A stretch of DNA of 20,911 bases, taken from positions 1 to 20,911 of the IMG/VR virus record IMGVR_UViG_3300037069_002560, one strand, 5' to 3'. The stretch comes from a virus. The position numbers and the translations under genes are program-made. Each line of letters opens with the position of its first letter. Within the stretch, counting starts at the first letter, position 1. The notes beneath the pieces were generated by a model. The model did no database searches and had not been told where the DNA came from. It saw only the letters and a program-made list of their open reading frames with translations. Below, one piece after another: positions 12,013-20,789 of the stretch.

Positions 12013-13527
12013 CTACGCGCCGGCGCCGATGTTGTCCAAAACGCCCATCACGGCCGAAGCCTTGTTGATGAACGCCTGCATCGACCGGACCTCGAAGTCG
12101 TACCGAGGGCCACCGTTGGCGCCTGCAGCGCGGTTCGCGCCGTAGTCGAACCGGAAGAAGTCGTACTGCGTGCGGACCTGCAGCGCAGCGGTGACATTCG
12201 ATCCGGGGAACGGCAGCTGGTCGACGACCGCGACGATGCGGCCAGGCGGCAGGTTCGGCTGCAGGTGCAGCGGAATCGGCCGACCGTTGACGGTCTTGTT
12301 CAGGTACGTCGCGACGTGACCGCCAGCGACGACCTCACCGCGACCGACCTTGTCGTCCGGCACCAGCCACGTCACGGCCTGCGGGTTGTCCAACACCGCG
12401 TTCGCGATGTCGGTCAACACCTGACTGCCCATGAGCATCCGGGTCGGCGTGACCTGGTAGGTGTCGTAGATCGACCGGTTCATGTCGTCGATCTGCTCGA
12501 GCGCCGCACCGGAGACAGTCAGCGCGCTACCGTTGAGGGACTTCCAGTACGCGCCCTGGCTGACACCCGAGCCGGGGGTCACCAGGTTCGCGGTCGCGCC
12601 CGGGGTCAGCGCTTGATCCGGTGATGCGGAGAAGTCACCGAGGATCGACGCGGCGAGCCCGTTCCCCCAGTACGTCTGGTACGACGTGTCGGCGACAGGC
12701 ACCGACGCGGGGCCCGGCTGCCCGGCGTTGTAGAGCCCGGCGTACCCGGTCGGCACGTTCTGTGTCGTGCCGGGGACCGACGTGATGGTGACGGTGTTCG
12801 TCGGGGTAGTGGTGTAGTACTTCTCGGTGCCGGCGCCGGTGCTGACGTACCAGTCATAGCCGGTCGCGCCCTTCACCGCAGGCACCGATGCGGTCACCGA
12901 GTTCGTCGAACCGGTCAACGCGCCAGTGTTCGCCTCCGCTGAGGCCACACCGGAACCGCCGTAGTACCAGTTCATCCCGGACCGCGCCGCGGCCTTCACG
13001 TACACCGTGACAGCACCGATGGTGCCGCCTGTGCTGGCCGAGACGAGCGTCGGGGTGCCGATTGCCGGCAACGCGAAGCTCTGCGCGTTCAGCTCGTGAC
13101 GGTCCAGCATGATGAGCAGCTGGTTGATCGTCTGCAGCGTGTCGACAGCGAGCACGTCGGCGTAGTCAGCGCCCTGCGCGATCGCGTCCCACGTGACCAG
13201 ACCACCCGCGCCGACCGCCGCGTACGGCGCGTACACCCACTGGTTCTGGATGTTGATGACCGGCGCCGCTTCGCTCTTCGGCACACCACCGTCGGGCTGG
13301 CTCGAGTTGAGGTTGAGCAGCACTTGGAACATCGCCGCCGTCGCGCCCTTGCCTCGGCCACGGGGGACCGAGTTGAAGAACGGGACGTCGACCGGGACCC
13401 ACGACATGATGTCGTCGAGAAGGTCGATACCCGCGATGCCGGTGGTCGTGTCGATACCGGCGGTCGCGGCCTTGATCATGCTGAAGGTGTCCTCGGTGAC
13501 GCCGAGAACGTCTGCACCCCAAGACAT
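12013..13527 (-). CDS. Major capsid protein, HK97-fold, with inserted Ig/Fn3-like domain
   Basis: A 504-residue protein starting at ATG 13527, with a strong AGGAG site 8 bases upstream. Order of parts: N-arm (1-45), a PFFNSVPRGRGKGATAAMFQ segment (49-68), a helical spine (DVLAVDTLQTINQLLIMLDRHE, 124-145), an inserted beta domain (about 157-254), then the rest of the core. Core signatures include TPTRMLMGSQVLTDIANAVLD (360-380) and a late YDFFRFDYGANRAAGANGG segment (455-473). The insert carries VKGATGYDWYVSTGAG (218-233) and NTVTITSVPG (244-253), typical of Ig/Fn3-like phage surface domains. Position after protease and scaffold genes, plus its own structured leader and best ribosome site, fit the most abundant virion protein. 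No separate N-terminal delta domain is seen; a separate scaffold gene is present instead. Confidence 0.88.
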   Translation of the reverse strand: MSWGADVLGVTEDTFSMIKAATAGIDTTTGIAGIDLLDDIMSWVPVDVPFFNSVPRGRGKGATAAMFQVLLNLNSSQPDGGVPKSEAAPVINIQNQWVYAPYAAVGAGGLVTWDAIAQGADYADVLAVDTLQTINQLLIMLDRHELNAQSFALPAIGTPTLVSASTGGTIGAVTVYVKAAARSGMNWYYGGSGVASAEANTGALTGSTNSVTASVPAVKGATGYDWYVSTGAGTEKYYTTTPTNTVTITSVPGTTQNVPTGYAGLYNAGQPGPASVPVADTSYQTYWGNGLAASILGDFSASPDQALTPGATANLVTPGSGVSQGAYWKSLNGSALTVSGAALEQIDDMNRSIYDTYQVTPTRMLMGSQVLTDIANAVLDNPQAVTWLVPDDKVGRGEVVAGGHVATYLNKTVNGRPIPLHLQPNLPPGRIVAVVDQLPFPGSNVTAALQVRTQYDFFRFDYGANRAAGANGGPRYDFEVRSMQAFINKASAVMGVLDNIGAGA

Positions 13528-15003: not shown

Positions 15004-15612
15004 CTACCTGCTCCTGAGGTTGGCCAGCGTCTCAGCGCTGGGGGTACGTCGCCTCGCTCGGCCTTGCGGAGAGAACCCGTTGTACTTGCCAGCTTTGACG
15101 TCAGCCCACGTCGGCGCGTCCCACTGCACGCCGAGGAGCCAGTCGCCAGCCTTGATGACGACGTCGGAACCGTCAGCGGCCTTCAGATGCCAGTCGGGGC
15201 CGCGGTAGATATAGCTCTCGACGACGGTGCCGTGGCCGGCCGTGCCGTCAACATGGTTCAGCCCGATCTCGCGGGACTTCTGCATGTACGACCACGCGGC
15301 GTCCTCGAGCACATCCTGGTTAGCGAAGTCTTGGAAACCGTCGGCGGCCTTGCCGACGTCGGGCAGGTTCGCGCCGTACGCGAGCCCGAGGGTGAACCGC
15401 CGGTCACTGTCGGACTTCACGACGAAACACGCCACGTCGTCGCCGCTGGCTTTGACCGCGCCGGCGTCGCGCAGCGTCGCGACGATGTTCGCGGCGGCTT
15501 GCTGCGTCGAAATCCCGGCCGCCTCAGCGGCGCACCGCAGGTCGGTCAGCGTGATATGCCGGGAGTCGCCGTGCGCGTCGTCCGGGCGGTCACACCCGCA
15601 GGAGAGGCACAT
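15004..15612 (-). CDS. Prohead maturation protease, XkdF-like (S78-type)
   Basis: A 202-residue protein starting at ATG 15612, sharing one base with the upstream TGA and preceded by a GAAGGAGAAG site. A longer reading up to 16047 is rejected because it overlaps two genes without ribosome-site support. The N-terminus (CLSCGCDRPDDAHGDSRHITLTDL) is a Cys-rich segment frequent in actinophage proteases, followed by a helical part. The C-terminal half follows the XkdF / Peptidase_S78_2 outline: a GLNHVDG histidine (H120), VVESYIYRG (130-138), KAGDWLLGVQW (154-164) and W-ADVKAGKYNGFSPQG with S181. H120 and S181 are the probable catalytic pair. The enzyme would cleave scaffold and capsid N-termini in the prohead. 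It sits next to its presumed scaffold substrate. Confidence 0.85.
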   Translation of the reverse strand: MCLSCGCDRPDDAHGDSRHITLTDLRCAAEAAGISTQQAAANIVATLRDAGAVKASGDDVACFVVKSDSDRRFTLGLAYGANLPDVGKAADGFQDFANQDVLEDAAWSYMQKSREIGLNHVDGTAGHGTVVESYIYRGPDWHLKAADGSDVVIKAGDWLLGVQWDAPTWADVKAGKYNGFSPQGRARRRTPSAETLANLRSR

Positions 15613-15974
15613 CACTTCTCCTTCTCGCCGACGAGACTGTTCCATGGCACGAGCACGGTGCAGAACTCGCTCGCGAACTTGGCGTTCTTGGCGTTGTTGT
15701 CGATGAGCAGCGACACGTTGCGTTTGCGGCAGAACTTCGCTTTCGCCTTGTGCGGCGGCGCGGGGAACACGACGATCTCGTCCCAGCAGTGACCGAGCCC
15801 GAGACTGTTCAGGTAGCCGATCTTGTCGGCAACATCCTGCTGCGTCGGCTGGTCGGTGCTGCACCCGGTCATCACGATCACGACGTGGCCGGCAGCGCGT
15901 AGCGCGGTCATCAGCGACTGCATCGTCGCCGGGTCGGCGTCGATGGTGCCGTCGAGGTCCACGCCGACGATCAC
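15612..15974 (-). CDS. HAD-superfamily phosphatase-like protein inside the head operon
   Basis: A 120-residue protein. The start is GTG 15974, overlapping the portal-fusion stop as GTGA, because GAGGAGG lies just upstream; an ATG at 16013 has no such support. Motifs of a minimal HAD fold are present: D6-L-D8-G-T-I (motif I nucleophile and acid/base), VIVMTG with T36 (motif II), a Lys-rich stretch near K80 (motif III), and LLIDNN with D92 (motif IV). N93 replaces the second acidic residue often found there. There is no cap domain of note, so macromolecular or nucleotide phosphate substrates are possible. Small HAD proteins occur in phages as nucleotide or DNA-end phosphatases. Here the gene lies between portal and protease genes, not in a metabolism cluster. 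The substrate is unknown. Confidence 0.75.
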   Translation of the reverse strand: MIVGVDLDGTIDADPATMQSLMTALRAAGHVVIVMTGCSTDQPTQQDVADKIGYLNSLGLGHCWDEIVVFPAPPHKAKAKFCRKRNVSLLIDNNAKNAKFASEFCTVLVPWNSLVGEKEK

Positions 15975-18900
15975 GGGCCCTCCTCGTAGTGCGGGGCGAT
16001 CGCGCACCGGCACTGCGGATGCTCCGGCGCGAGCGGTGTCCCGTCACCCCAGCGGTGCGGGTTGTGGGCCGCGATGTCCGCGCAGATCGGGCACGGATCC
16101 GCCGCGGTGAGCAGGTCCCACATCGGCACGCCGTTATCGCGGTACATCGCCGCGCTCGCCGCCGACATGGCCCGGTTCACTTCGGTCACGGCGATCAGGT
16201 GCGCGCGCTTCGGGTCCTGCAACGCGGCGTCGATCGCGTCGGCGATCTGCTGCACCGACCATCCTTGCGCGAGGCCATCCTCAACGGCCTTCGCGATGAG
16301 GTTCCTGGTCGTGTCGTCGATGCCCTTGATACGGACGCCGACAGAGTCGAGCAGCCGCTGGAAACCACCATCGGCGACGAGCCGCGACGCGTCAGGATGC
16401 CCCGGCTGCCACGCGCCCCAGTCGATGCGGTTGATCTCGTCGACGAACGGTCCGTGCGCGTCCGGGGTCTGCTCGAGCGCGTCTTTGCCGCCGGCGAGGT
16501 ACGCGTCGACGTACAGCTCGTGCAGCGTGTCCCGAAACGCCTTGTCGTCGAAGGTGAGTAGCCGGCCGAACGACCGCGCCAGGTCGCGTGCCGCATCTGA
16601 CTTCGCCGGGATGTTCGTGACGCCCTGGTGCTCAAGCAGCCACCGGCGCGCGATCGTGCTCGCGGTGATGACGGTCGCGAGAGCACCGGCGATCGCGATC
16701 GTCCAGTGCGCGACGAGCAACGCCTCGAGGTGTCCCCAAGGGCCGGGCCGCAGCGCCGACGCCGCGCCGCTCGCCCCGGACGTCGTGCTACTCGCAGCAG
16801 TCGCTGCCCTGCGGCGTCGTTGCTGCTGCTGCGCTTTTGGGCCGACACCACCGGCTTTCGCGGCGCGGCCAAGCGCCGACGTCACCAGATGAGCGTCATT
16901 TGCAAGCTCGCGGCGCACCGTCGGGTTCATCGACAAGTCCGCCGGGTCGAGCCACAGGATCGCCTCGAACCCGTCACCGTCAGGGTTCGCCCCCATGTCA
17001 CGGTTGGCCAGGTCGAGCATCGACTCCGAGCCGATCTCGTACACGTGCCCGCGGTAGATGCCGTTGCCGGAATCCCACGAGCCGACGGACGTCGCCGAGT
17101 CGGGCAAGTCGAGGCCGGTCTCCTCTTCCCACTCGCGGATCGCACCGCCGGCAGAGGTTTCGCCGTCTTCGAGGTGACCGCCGGGAAACTCCAGCGCGCC
17201 GGCGGCCGGGTCGTCGTCGGTGTGTGCGCGTTGCAGCATCAGCACACGGCCGGTGTCGCGGGCCCGCAACGCCAACCCGGCGATCGGCGGCTCACCAGCG
17301 GCTTTCGCGCACGAGTCGCGGCCCACGCCGTTCAGCTGCGCCGCCAGGTCGACGTCGAGGTGCTCGAACGTGAAGTCGCGCCACCGGCCGGCATCGACGC
17401 GGCGCTTCGCGAACCGGCGGAACGCGGCGAGCTCGGTGGCCACCGCGGTCGCCTTCGCCGCCTGCTTCGCCTTCGCGTCGGCTTTCGCCTTCACCTTGGG
17501 CTGCGGCTTGGCCGGCGGCGTACCCGCGCCGTTCGCCTGCGGTGCCGCGCCCTGCTGGCCAGCCTGCTGCGCCTGCGCCGCCTGCTGCGCGCCTTGGGTG
17601 GCCGGCGTCATCAGCGGCTGGCCGAGCGGCATCGGCGGCCGCTGCACGACACTGCTCGGCACCGGGGCGAGTGTCTCCGGGTCGATGTCACCGGACTGCG
17701 ACTCCAGCGACTCCAGCGTGATCGGGCCGAGCTTCTGGTTGTCGATGAAACGCGGCACCCGCAGCCGAGGATCGACCGGCTTACCGAGCACATCGGAGCG
17801 AACCTCATCCGGCGACTCGGCACCCATGTCGACGTACACCTGGTGCACGCGCGCTTCCATCAGCCGGTCCTCACGCTCACGGCCGGTGTCGAACGTGACC
17901 GCGATCGGCAACTGCAGGTCGTCCTGCAGCACCTCGTTGAGGATCGCCTCGTAATACTCGGTGTTCGGCAACGTCGTCAGCCGGAACTGCGTGTCGACCT
18001 GACTCTCCGAGCTCGACTTGTTGACCTGGTCGAGGATGCCGAGATCCTGCGGCACGAGACCGAATGCGGCGATCGTGCGACGCGCGACGTACTCGGCGAG
18101 CTTCGGGTCGAACGTGTACGGCTTGTAGACGAACGGCTTCTCACCAGCCGGGATGAACCACGCGCCGTGGCGGCCCTTCTGGTTGTTCTGAAACCACGCG
18201 TCCCACGTCTCCTGCAGCTCGGCGAGCGCATCGGGATCGCTCATGCCTTCCGGCGCCGACAGCAGCATCTCCGGGACCGCGCCCTCGGTGAAGAACTCGA
18301 GGAAGAACATCTGCAGCCGCACATCGGTGTTGGCGTTGATCAGGCACGTTTCGATCGGCGCGACACCGTACGGCGACTCCGTCACCGGCCACTGCGGCTC
18401 GTAGATGACGTCCTTCGCGTTCAGGTCAGCCCACGGGATGCCCTGAATGATCTGCTGATAGGCGGGCGCGTCGCCGTCAGGAACATCACCGTAGAAGTCG
18501 ATGAGCGGCATGATCGTCGTGCCGTCGATGTACTTCAGATGCGTCAGCTGGCCGCCGCGGTTGCGTTCCTTCCACAAGCACCCGGCGTCGTAACGCAGCA
18601 CATCCATCGCCCACGCCGCGAACCAGGTGTTGAAGTTGCGGCGGCCGTCCGGCTTACGCAGGAACCGCTTCGCTTCCTTGAGCTCAGCGGCGACATTGCC
18701 GTGGTAGCCGTCCATCGGCTTGAACAGCAGACCCATCGACCGGATGTCGTTGATGATGTGCCGGGCGCAGATCATCGCGATGTCGTAGCCCTCGAAAATC
18801 TGCTTCATCGAGTCGAACGGCAGCCGGTTCGGCCGGGTGTCGGTCGTGATGTTGCGGCCCGGCATGTAGTTGTACTGCCGGGGACGCTTGTCGTAGCCGA

Positions 18901-19249
18901 TGAACGGGGTCAGTGGCCGGCCGGGGGAGAACGGCTCGACGAAGTCCAGGCCTTGCCGGCGCATCGCGACCTCGATGACTTCCGGCGTCGCTACCAGGCG
19001 CGTCGGGGCGAGGTCCTGCGCTGCCTTACGCGCCAGATCGACCGCGCGCATCGGCTGCAGCGGCTTACCGAGCCGCGCGGGGATCTCCGGGCGGGTGGCG
19101 GCGACGAGCACATCGGCGACCTGCTTGACTGCGGCGCGCTGCGCCTGCGGCACACCGGTGAGCCGGTCCGGCCGCATCGCGACCATCACCGCATGCTCGA
19201 CGGTCTCCAGCGCCACCTGACGGGGGCGCGGGCGCAGGGTGAACGCCAA
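15971..19249 (-). CDS. Portal protein fused to a Nudix hydrolase and a MuF-like domain
   Basis: A single uninterrupted 1092-residue frame. The start is TTG 19249, fixed by a perfect AGGAGG 6 bases upstream. Residues 1-530 are a portal protein (conserved-looking YNYMPGRNITTDTRP at 127-140, wing and stem helices to about 500). Residues 540-605 are a Gln/Ala/Pro then Lys/Ala linker, and FRRFAKRRVDAGRWRDFTFEH (610-630) is a typical portal C-terminal tail. Residues 655-790 form a Nudix domain with an intact box: G691-x5-E697-x7-R705-E706-W-E-E709-E710-x-G712. A hydrophobic helix lies near 846-868. Residues 895-1085 are a MuF/SPP1-gp7-like head morphogenesis domain: TEVNRAMSAA (1022-1031), DPCPIC (1051-1056), HPQCRC (1077-1082). 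The portal forms the DNA channel and MuF is a minor head protein. The Nudix substrate is unknown. Confidence 0.88.
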   Translation of the reverse strand: MAFTLRPRPRQVALETVEHAVMVAMRPDRLTGVPQAQRAAVKQVADVLVAATRPEIPARLGKPLQPMRAVDLARKAAQDLAPTRLVATPEVIEVAMRRQGLDFVEPFSPGRPLTPFIGYDKRPRQYNYMPGRNITTDTRPNRLPFDSMKQIFEGYDIAMICARHIINDIRSMGLLFKPMDGYHGNVAAELKEAKRFLRKPDGRRNFNTWFAAWAMDVLRYDAGCLWKERNRGGQLTHLKYIDGTTIMPLIDFYGDVPDGDAPAYQQIIQGIPWADLNAKDVIYEPQWPVTESPYGVAPIETCLINANTDVRLQMFFLEFFTEGAVPEMLLSAPEGMSDPDALAELQETWDAWFQNNQKGRHGAWFIPAGEKPFVYKPYTFDPKLAEYVARRTIAAFGLVPQDLGILDQVNKSSSESQVDTQFRLTTLPNTEYYEAILNEVLQDDLQLPIAVTFDTGREREDRLMEARVHQVYVDMGAESPDEVRSDVLGKPVDPRLRVPRFIDNQKLGPITLESLESQSGDIDPETLAPVPSSVVQRPPMPLGQPLMTPATQGAQQAAQAQQAGQQGAAPQANGAGTPPAKPQPKVKAKADAKAKQAAKATAVATELAAFRRFAKRRVDAGRWRDFTFEHLDVDLAAQLNGVGRDSCAKAAGEPPIAGLALRARDTGRVLMLQRAHTDDDPAAGALEFPGGHLEDGETSAGGAIREWEEETGLDLPDSATSVGSWDSGNGIYRGHVYEIGSESMLDLANRDMGANPDGDGFEAILWLDPADLSMNPTVRRELANDAHLVTSALGRAAKAGGVGPKAQQQQRRRRAATAASSTTSGASGAASALRPGPWGHLEALLVAHWTIAIAGALATVITASTIARRWLLEHQGVTNIPAKSDAARDLARSFGRLLTFDDKAFRDTLHELYVDAYLAGGKDALEQTPDAHGPFVDEINRIDWGAWQPGHPDASRLVADGGFQRLLDSVGVRIKGIDDTTRNLIAKAVEDGLAQGWSVQQIADAIDAALQDPKRAHLIAVTEVNRAMSAASAAMYRDNGVPMWDLLTAADPCPICADIAAHNPHRWGDGTPLAPEHPQCRCAIAPHYEEGP

Positions 19250-19259
19250 CGTGGTCCTC

Positions 19260-20789
19260 CTAGGTGGTCGCAGGCTCGGGGGTGCGCGTCGCTGGGCACA
19301 TCACGCACCGGTCGCCGCGCCAGCGGTGGTCGCATGCAGCGGATTGGCGCGCAAGCCGCTGCGCGTGCTGCAAGCGCCCGAGCGACGGGTTGCGGAACCG
19401 GTCAGGGTTACCGCCTGCGGCTGTCTTCTCGAGGTCTTTGCGCAGGTACTCAAGGAACGCCTCGCCGTGGCTGTAGGAGCCGGCGAGCAGGATGTGCGCG
19501 GCCATGCCGATCGTGACCGCCTGGTCGTCGTGGCCGTTCGGGTCATGGTCGAGCCGGGTCACGCCTGGGGTCGTCTCACGCAACCGCACCCGCAGGAGCT
19601 CTTCACGCAGCGCCGGGGTGTGCGGGACTGTGATCTGCCGGTTCCGGAACGCCATGACGAGCGCGGCCGCGACCTGCCCGACGCTCGTGGTGGTGAACGG
19701 GAACTCCACAGCACGCACACCGCGCCGGTTCAGGTTCTGCATCGCGCCGACGAACTGTGTCGGGTCGCCGTACACCGTCGCCCGGTTCCACTTCGGGGCG
19801 GTCCGTGCCAGCCAGTCCTCAACCGCTTGGATCTGCACCGGCTTGCTGCGGGTGCCTTTCCAACGTTCGATGTGGTCGACAATGAGCCGCTTCGCGCCGC
19901 GAGGGTTCTCCGCATCGAGCGGCTCGGCGTGCGCGATCGTCATCACTGTCGCGTCGTTGCGGATACCGATGTCGACGAGGATCAGGTACTTCACGTCGGG
20001 GATCGGCCCGCGGCTCGGCCGGCCCTTCGCCGCGTCGTAGTCCTCGACGCGGATCGCGCGGTCCTCAGCCTCGGTCCACTTGTTCAGCACGAGCCGGTCG
20101 AAAGCGCTCGGGTCGGTCTTCGCGAACTCGCGGCGCAGCCGCTCGATCTCGGCTTTCGACTGCCACGGCACCGGCCCGGGCGCCTCATACACGCGCCAGC
20201 CGCTGTCTTCCTTCGCCATCTCCAGGATGCCGTGCGACCAATGCGAAGGCTCACCGGCGCTGGTGAGGATGATCAGCCGGCAGCCCGGTGTCTTCTGCAC
20301 GGTGGTCCGCACCGCCTGATAGACGCGTTTCGCACCGCGTGTTTCCGGCCACTGCGCGAACTCGTCGAGGATCAGCAGGTGCGTGTCGCGCCGGCCCCAC
20401 GACCCGGAGTCCGACTGGGCCATGACACGCACCGTCGCGCCGTTCGCACCGCGGATCCGCTCGGCTTCGACGGTCAGCGCCTCATCCAAGCCGGGGGTCG
20501 CCCCGATGAGCGCCGTCATCGCGTCGATCAGGATCGTCGCCTGCTCGGTGTTCGCCGCGACGACGTAGGCGTTGGCCAGCGGCGGCGCCTCAGCGAGCAG
20601 CCACGCGATACACACACCGGCGACGTCGGTCGTCTTCGACCCGCCGCGGCCGCGGGTCAGGAAATGCAACCGGGGCCCGTTCTCAGCGAAGATCGCATCG
20701 GCGTCGGCACGTTGGAACGTGGCCGCGACAACGCCCCACTCCTTGCCGTTCTCCAGCACGAGCCCGTACATCACGTCCAGGGCGTCCAC
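19260..20789 (-). CDS. terL: Terminase large subunit
   Basis: A 509-residue packaging motor. The start is GTG 20789, 8 bases after the upstream stop; the reading WGVVAATFQRADADAIF before the P-loop matches the usual N-terminus, although an internal ATG at 20773 cannot be excluded. ATPase half: Walker A TRGRGGSKT (45-53), Walker B LLILDEF (138-144) and coupling motif IILTSAGEP (173-181). Nuclease half (RNase H-like): LVDIGIRND with D273, VYGDPTQF with a second acidic residue near 347, and HDDQAVTIGMA as the third acidic site. The last 25 residues carry a Cys/His cluster (C486, H488, C495, C498) that could bind zinc. The portal gene follows after 10 bases, as in most tailed phages. The product cuts concatemers and pumps DNA into the prohead. 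Confidence 0.93.
   Translation of the reverse strand: MDALDVMYGLVLENGKEWGVVAATFQRADADAIFAENGPRLHFLTRGRGGSKTTDVAGVCIAWLLAEAPPLANAYVVAANTEQATILIDAMTALIGATPGLDEALTVEAERIRGANGATVRVMAQSDSGSWGRRDTHLLILDEFAQWPETRGAKRVYQAVRTTVQKTPGCRLIILTSAGEPSHWSHGILEMAKEDSGWRVYEAPGPVPWQSKAEIERLRREFAKTDPSAFDRLVLNKWTEAEDRAIRVEDYDAAKGRPSRGPIPDVKYLILVDIGIRNDATVMTIAHAEPLDAENPRGAKRLIVDHIERWKGTRSKPVQIQAVEDWLARTAPKWNRATVYGDPTQFVGAMQNLNRRGVRAVEFPFTTTSVGQVAAALVMAFRNRQITVPHTPALREELLRVRLRETTPGVTRLDHDPNGHDDQAVTIGMAAHILLAGSYSHGEAFLEYLRKDLEKTAAGGNPDRFRNPSLGRLQHAQRLARQSAACDHRWRGDRCVMCPATRTPEPATT

Follow-up and report, generated by a model that had tools for sequence, protein, structure and literature searches.

That phage head proteins may deliver an enzyme cargo is an idea that has been put forward from independent data in two accounts (PMC9503650; PMC5512222). 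As far as its passages on these fusions show, the first (Iyer et al., 2022) describes Nudix domains fused to MuF, to the portal or to a head serine peptidase, and proposes that these fusions are packaged and injected, to act against ADP-ribose signals. The second, which appeared in 2017, reports in its corresponding passages 2H domains fused to MuF or to the portal, and there, in the MuF polymorphic toxins and the phage polyvalent proteins, MuF or the portal is likewise a carrier of enzyme domains. Among cultured phages, Sonali (gp3, MK411746) and Mufasa8 (gp3, MN586027), both infecting Arthrobacter, encode behind their terminase a portal-Nudix-MuF protein with an intact Nudix box. The portals of the Bcep781 group (Bcep1 gp18 and others) bear a Nudix domain at their C-terminus, and the GenBank record of Bcep1 notes a similarity of its portal to Nudix proteins, while Streptomyces phage Gilgamesh gp52 and its homologues in Streptomyces prophages, located in the head cassette, belong to the Nudix subfamily studied here. 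A literature search found no paper on the Nudix domain of the Bcep781 group or on that of Sonali and Mufasa8, and none in which an anti-defence role of Nudix was tested, one review of CBASS mentioning Nudix twice.

The window considered here, by which we mean the whole stretch of 20,911 nucleotides of IMG/VR record IMGVR_UViG_3300037069_002560, comes from an uncultivated phage whose host is probably an actinobacterium. Its minus strand carries a siphovirus-like head cassette, with the gene of the terminase large subunit (positions 19260-20789; Pfam PF03354, 6.1e-5, slightly under the curated cut-off), the fusion gene, the gene of an XkdF-type head protease (15004-15630; PF14550, 4.7e-16), a probable scaffold gene and that of a probable major capsid protein (12013-13527), the latter named from its position and length as compared with Sonali and Mufasa8, not from a profile. 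The fusion gene (15971-19249, minus strand) is a single open frame coding for 1092 residues. It starts with a TTG codon at 19249, six bases after a perfect Shine-Dalgarno sequence, AGGAGG (19256-19261), just behind the terminase gene. Three Pfam profiles match the protein above their curated cut-offs, Phage_portal (PF04860, residues 160-484, 1.9e-23), NUDIX (PF00293, residues 660-775, 4.9e-15) and Phage_Mu_F (PF04233, residues 985-1084, 3.6e-9), which bears out the uninterrupted portal, Nudix and MuF frame proposed in the sequence-only reading of this DNA. A family HMM extends the portal domain to residues 92-529 (17663-18976); its profile and the place of the gene directly behind the terminase make it a Caudoviricetes portal, with residues 1 to about 85 lacking a clear counterpart in Sonali and Mufasa8. 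The MuF domain (residues 962-1086 with the family HMM; 15992-16366) has the two motifs that had also been claimed, C1053-x2-C1056 and H1077-P-Q-C1080-R-C1082, and with its profile it belongs to the MuF / SPP1 gp7 family. It forms the C-terminus, which ends at residue 1092 with no toxin domain after it, so that the protein is not a MuF polymorphic toxin. The Nudix domain (residues 655-782; 16904-17287) is flanked by two linkers predicted to be disordered (pLDDT below 50), the first rich in Ala, Pro and Gln (residues 537-593; 17471-17641), the second in Gln, Arg, Ala and Ser (residues 795-831; 16757-16867). Before it comes a conserved helical joint, 'AFRRFAKRR..WRDFTFEHL..LN' (residues 609-652; 17294-17425), after which the cargo is exchanged in relatives. 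An identical protein is encoded on a second contig (L005).

The likeness to the described systems is close. The proteins of Sonali and Mufasa8 are about 40% and 35% identical to that of the window, but the 'RDFxF' element of the joint was not found before their Nudix domain. The partners of Nudix in the window, portal and MuF in a single polypeptide with it, are among those named in the relevant passages of PMC9503650, and the role proposed there is the one favoured here, whereas the systems of PMC5512222, as far as its passages show, bear a C-terminal toxin in place of a small-nucleotide hydrolase set between portal and MuF. The Bcep781-group portals differ further, with no MuF in the same protein and a distant Nudix sequence, and in Gilgamesh gp52, of the same Nudix subfamily and about 47% identical, the partner is an S78 prohead protease, unlike the portal of the window. 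To judge from those passages of the 2022 account, the general type of fusion has been known since then, and the protein of the window is a well-formed additional member. What we add is the retention of the RE..EE core, at least nine gains or losses of the Nudix domain, exact swaps with 2H at the joint, and an appended ADP-ribosyltransferase (ART).

The Nudix box (GX5EX7REUXEEXGU, residues 691-713; 17111-17179) is intact, as first read, each residue being present in G691-x5-E697-x7-R705-E706-W707-x-E709-E710-x-G712-L713, with a tryptophan at the U position 707 that is common to the family. The fold check suggested at the time also came out in favour of a Nudix enzyme: modelled alone with AlphaFold from an alignment of 65 sequences, the region adopts the alpha/beta/alpha Nudix fold (pLDDT 88.9, pTM 0.84), and the 50 best matches listed by Foldseek against the PDB are all Nudix proteins, of a generic kind. 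The Nudix block remains confident when the whole protein is modelled, with pLDDT values, taken per ten residues, of about 77-91 except in one weak loop (near 57). The domain is very probably catalytic. By profile, its nearest PDB families are MutT or CTP-pyrophosphohydrolase-like, not ADP-ribose pyrophosphatases. The latter are marked by a proline about 15-16 residues past the Nudix box, a position occupied here by G and N (residues 728-729). The clade to which the fused Nudix domains are assigned in the passages of PMC9503650 is T4-NudE-like, in contrast with the MutT-like character of the best solved relatives of ours; in our Nudix tree, made from a short alignment with few columns and long branches, T4-like NudE is a long branch.

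A scan of IMG/VR with the Nudix domain gave 308 confirmed relatives on uncultivated virus contigs, mostly placed between portal and MuF, from which the best 80 were kept. Among 54 open reading frames of this set, the window, Sonali and Mufasa8 included, Pfam recognized NUDIX in all 54, the portal in 50 and MuF in 33. A scan of genomes gave 23 good matches, every one in an Actinomycetota record, followed by a gap and then, in other bacteria, by short matches near the Nudix box at about 1e-9. Eleven of the 23 are portal-Nudix-MuF proteins, and nine are proteins of 633-838 residues resembling Gilgamesh gp52, with one (L103) confirmed by Pfam as an S78 protease-Nudix fusion. When recruitment used the portal only, 43 of 68 complete open reading frames had a Nudix domain and 25 lacked it; this share of 63% is not a prevalence, the query alignment having been built from Nudix-bearing portals. 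With such numbers, and with Sonali, Mufasa8 and the 2022 report, the claim that a Nudix domain between portal and MuF is unusual is not supported, and rarity of the fusion is rejected: it is common in this clade of portals. The same fusion is thus present in phages already reported, and a role is demonstrated in none of them, as far as the passages of PMC9503650 show. As the same order of three domains recurs in dozens of divergent relatives, the fusion is not due to chance, and the many orthologues together with purifying selection rule out an artefact of frame. As a side observation, the MuF-Nudix protein of L117 (6678-11375) contains an additional peptidoglycan-binding domain (PF01471, 1.8e-13), and in two prophages, of Arthrobacter and Pseudarthrobacter (L107, L109), the 'RDFxF' element follows the Nudix domain rather than preceding it, which suggests a separate insertion or a rearrangement.

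The active site has been kept with great constancy. Of 89 distinct Nudix domains, 84 match the pattern G-x5-E-x7-RE-x2-EE exactly, a count in which the genome-scan rows are biased since a REWxEE pattern was used there, the viral scan having been made without one. Four more have an extra loop residue only, so that RE..EE is kept in 88 of 89; the single exception (L057) has lost E710. Domains recruited through the portal alone tell the same story, with 34 of 35 distinct ones keeping RE..EE. Conservation of this metal-binding core in both sets argues that Nudix catalysis is under selection. In close pairs dN/dS is roughly 0.1-0.35, in the Nudix domain as well as in the portal, and the Nudix domain is shown to be under purifying selection.

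Along the portal tree, Nudix switches between present and absent 11 times, and at least nine of these switches, gains or losses, are forced by well-supported branches. Five relatives have a 2H phosphoesterase at the Nudix position: Pfam scores it slightly above the curated cut-off in L239 and L242 and slightly below in L191 and L205, and in L223 the domain is truncated by the contig end and gives no Pfam match; the complete domains retain both HxT motifs. One sister pair (support 100) is formed by the portals L239 and L244, which share 80% identity over residues 1-616; past the joint the first continues with 2H and the second with Nudix. L194 and L223 are likewise sisters (support 96), 73% identical over their first 772 residues, an identity that spans a 'VADGHHRA' domain, named ParB/sulfiredoxin-like by eye, before Nudix in one and 2H in the other. 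A third member of their clade (L206) has this GHHR domain with neither enzyme, and two relatives (L177, L071) have both Nudix and 2H. Like Nudix, 2H cuts phosphate bonds of nucleotides, and the two are the main cargo alternatives. Such natural swap pairs on near-identical portals are absent from the passages of PMC9503650 on these fusions and, as far as these show, apparently undescribed before. Separately, the GHHR domain, of 130 residues, occurs near the cargo in L194, L016, L025, L223, L206, L045 and L071, and Pfam gives it only very weak matches to DUF1015.

As the C-terminal side of the portal faces the capsid interior, an enzyme placed between this domain and MuF would be located where the genome leaves the head. 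We give about an even chance to the reading that the fused Nudix is an interchangeable enzyme of the head interior, which would act early in infection by destroying a signal made of a nucleotide or of ADP-ribose; signal clearing, already among the roles first suggested, is thus kept as a leading one. The Nudix domain would be a cargo on flexible linkers at the portal vertex; that there are twelve copies is a fair inference from the analogy with portal dodecamers. Assembled as part of the portal, it would be exposed to the cell, or carried into it, with the entering genome, and would hydrolyse a molecule of the NDP-X type, most probably an immune signal of the host made from NAD or ADP-ribose, or from another nucleotide, so that the incoming phage would be protected. 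The slot may have become modular because hosts differ in the signals that they use. The family of the window's Nudix is found not only on the portal but also on the S78 head protease (Gilgamesh gp52, L103) and on MuF alone (Pam4, L117), which makes placement in the head the constant feature and the enzyme the variable one. We would extend this, tentatively, to the portal-MuF of actinobacterial phages at large as a cargo slot that has evolved with its joint at a fixed place, where Nudix and 2H, also in combinations with the GHHR domain, would be exchanged as modules that destroy nucleotide signals at entry, with about 12 copies per virion at the genome exit. Were this the case, the portal vertex would be a delivery site for counter-defence enzymes acting before any phage gene is expressed. 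The two cultured fusion phages, Sonali and Mufasa8, and the natural exchanges between Nudix and 2H make the published idea directly testable.

Against the signal model stand the closest PDB matches, which are MutT-like, and the generic character of the structural matches; the sequence does not give the substrate. MutT/NudG-like relatives would suit an enzyme that acts late in the producing cell, before or during packaging, when free cytoplasmic portal rings would hydrolyse damaged or surplus nucleotides, as in MutT-like house cleaning, or late nucleotide signals that abort the cell, and the Nudix of the head protease would likewise be abundant late. We nevertheless hold this to be unlikely, as a portal fusion provides few copies per virion with no obvious advantage over a free enzyme, almost all the fusion partners found are head components, and Nudix is exchanged with 2H enzymes, for which no action on dNTPs is known. 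The portal remains in the virion, and delivery of the Nudix domain would require either action in place or proteolysis. That the XkdF-type protease cuts the fusion at both disordered linkers, so that free Nudix or Nudix-MuF would be the injected payload, agrees with the position of these linkers on either side of the domain, with the protease gene adjoining the fusion gene and with L196, which encodes a Nudix-MuF protein separately from the portal; the data allow no prediction of a cleavage site and give no sign of cutting, and we consider it distinctly unlikely. A structural or sensing spacer that binds a nucleotide and gates packaging or ejection, hydrolysis being unimportant, would explain why most members have the domain at one set place between two structural ones, but it is very unlikely: many of the complete orthologues (25 of 68) do without Nudix, the active site is kept in 88 of 89 distinct domains, and an unrelated fold, 2H, can replace it.

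Returning to the destruction of a signal at entry, an ADP-ribosyltransferase (PF03496) is found at the C-terminus of portal-MuF polypeptides with Nudix (L072, 1384-7980) and without it (L190, 5728-9726), and these two cases, the only ones, agree with a NAD/ADP-ribose setting. ART-like tails seen by eye in L045 and L047 were confirmed neither by Pfam nor by a model made from the two Pfam-positive domains, their E-values being circular and hence discounted, nor, for L047, by a PDB search with its tail. Residues ~1200-1248 after MuF in L030 (4144-8100) have a weak match, below the cut-off, to PI3/PI4-kinases (0.0017), possibly a further effector. Intein-like sequences also invade these proteins. 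A Hint insertion, named by eye, in L195 (C-terminal residues ~1118-1457; same protein family in L200, L201 and L102) and in L039 and L183 splits the MuF motif at HPxC|CRC ('HPQCFPAG...VVHNCRCALAP'), within the conserved metal-binding site, and large intein-like insertions break the portal domain in L055, L086 and L072 (Pfam LAGLIDADG_3 in all three) and, by eye, in L071.
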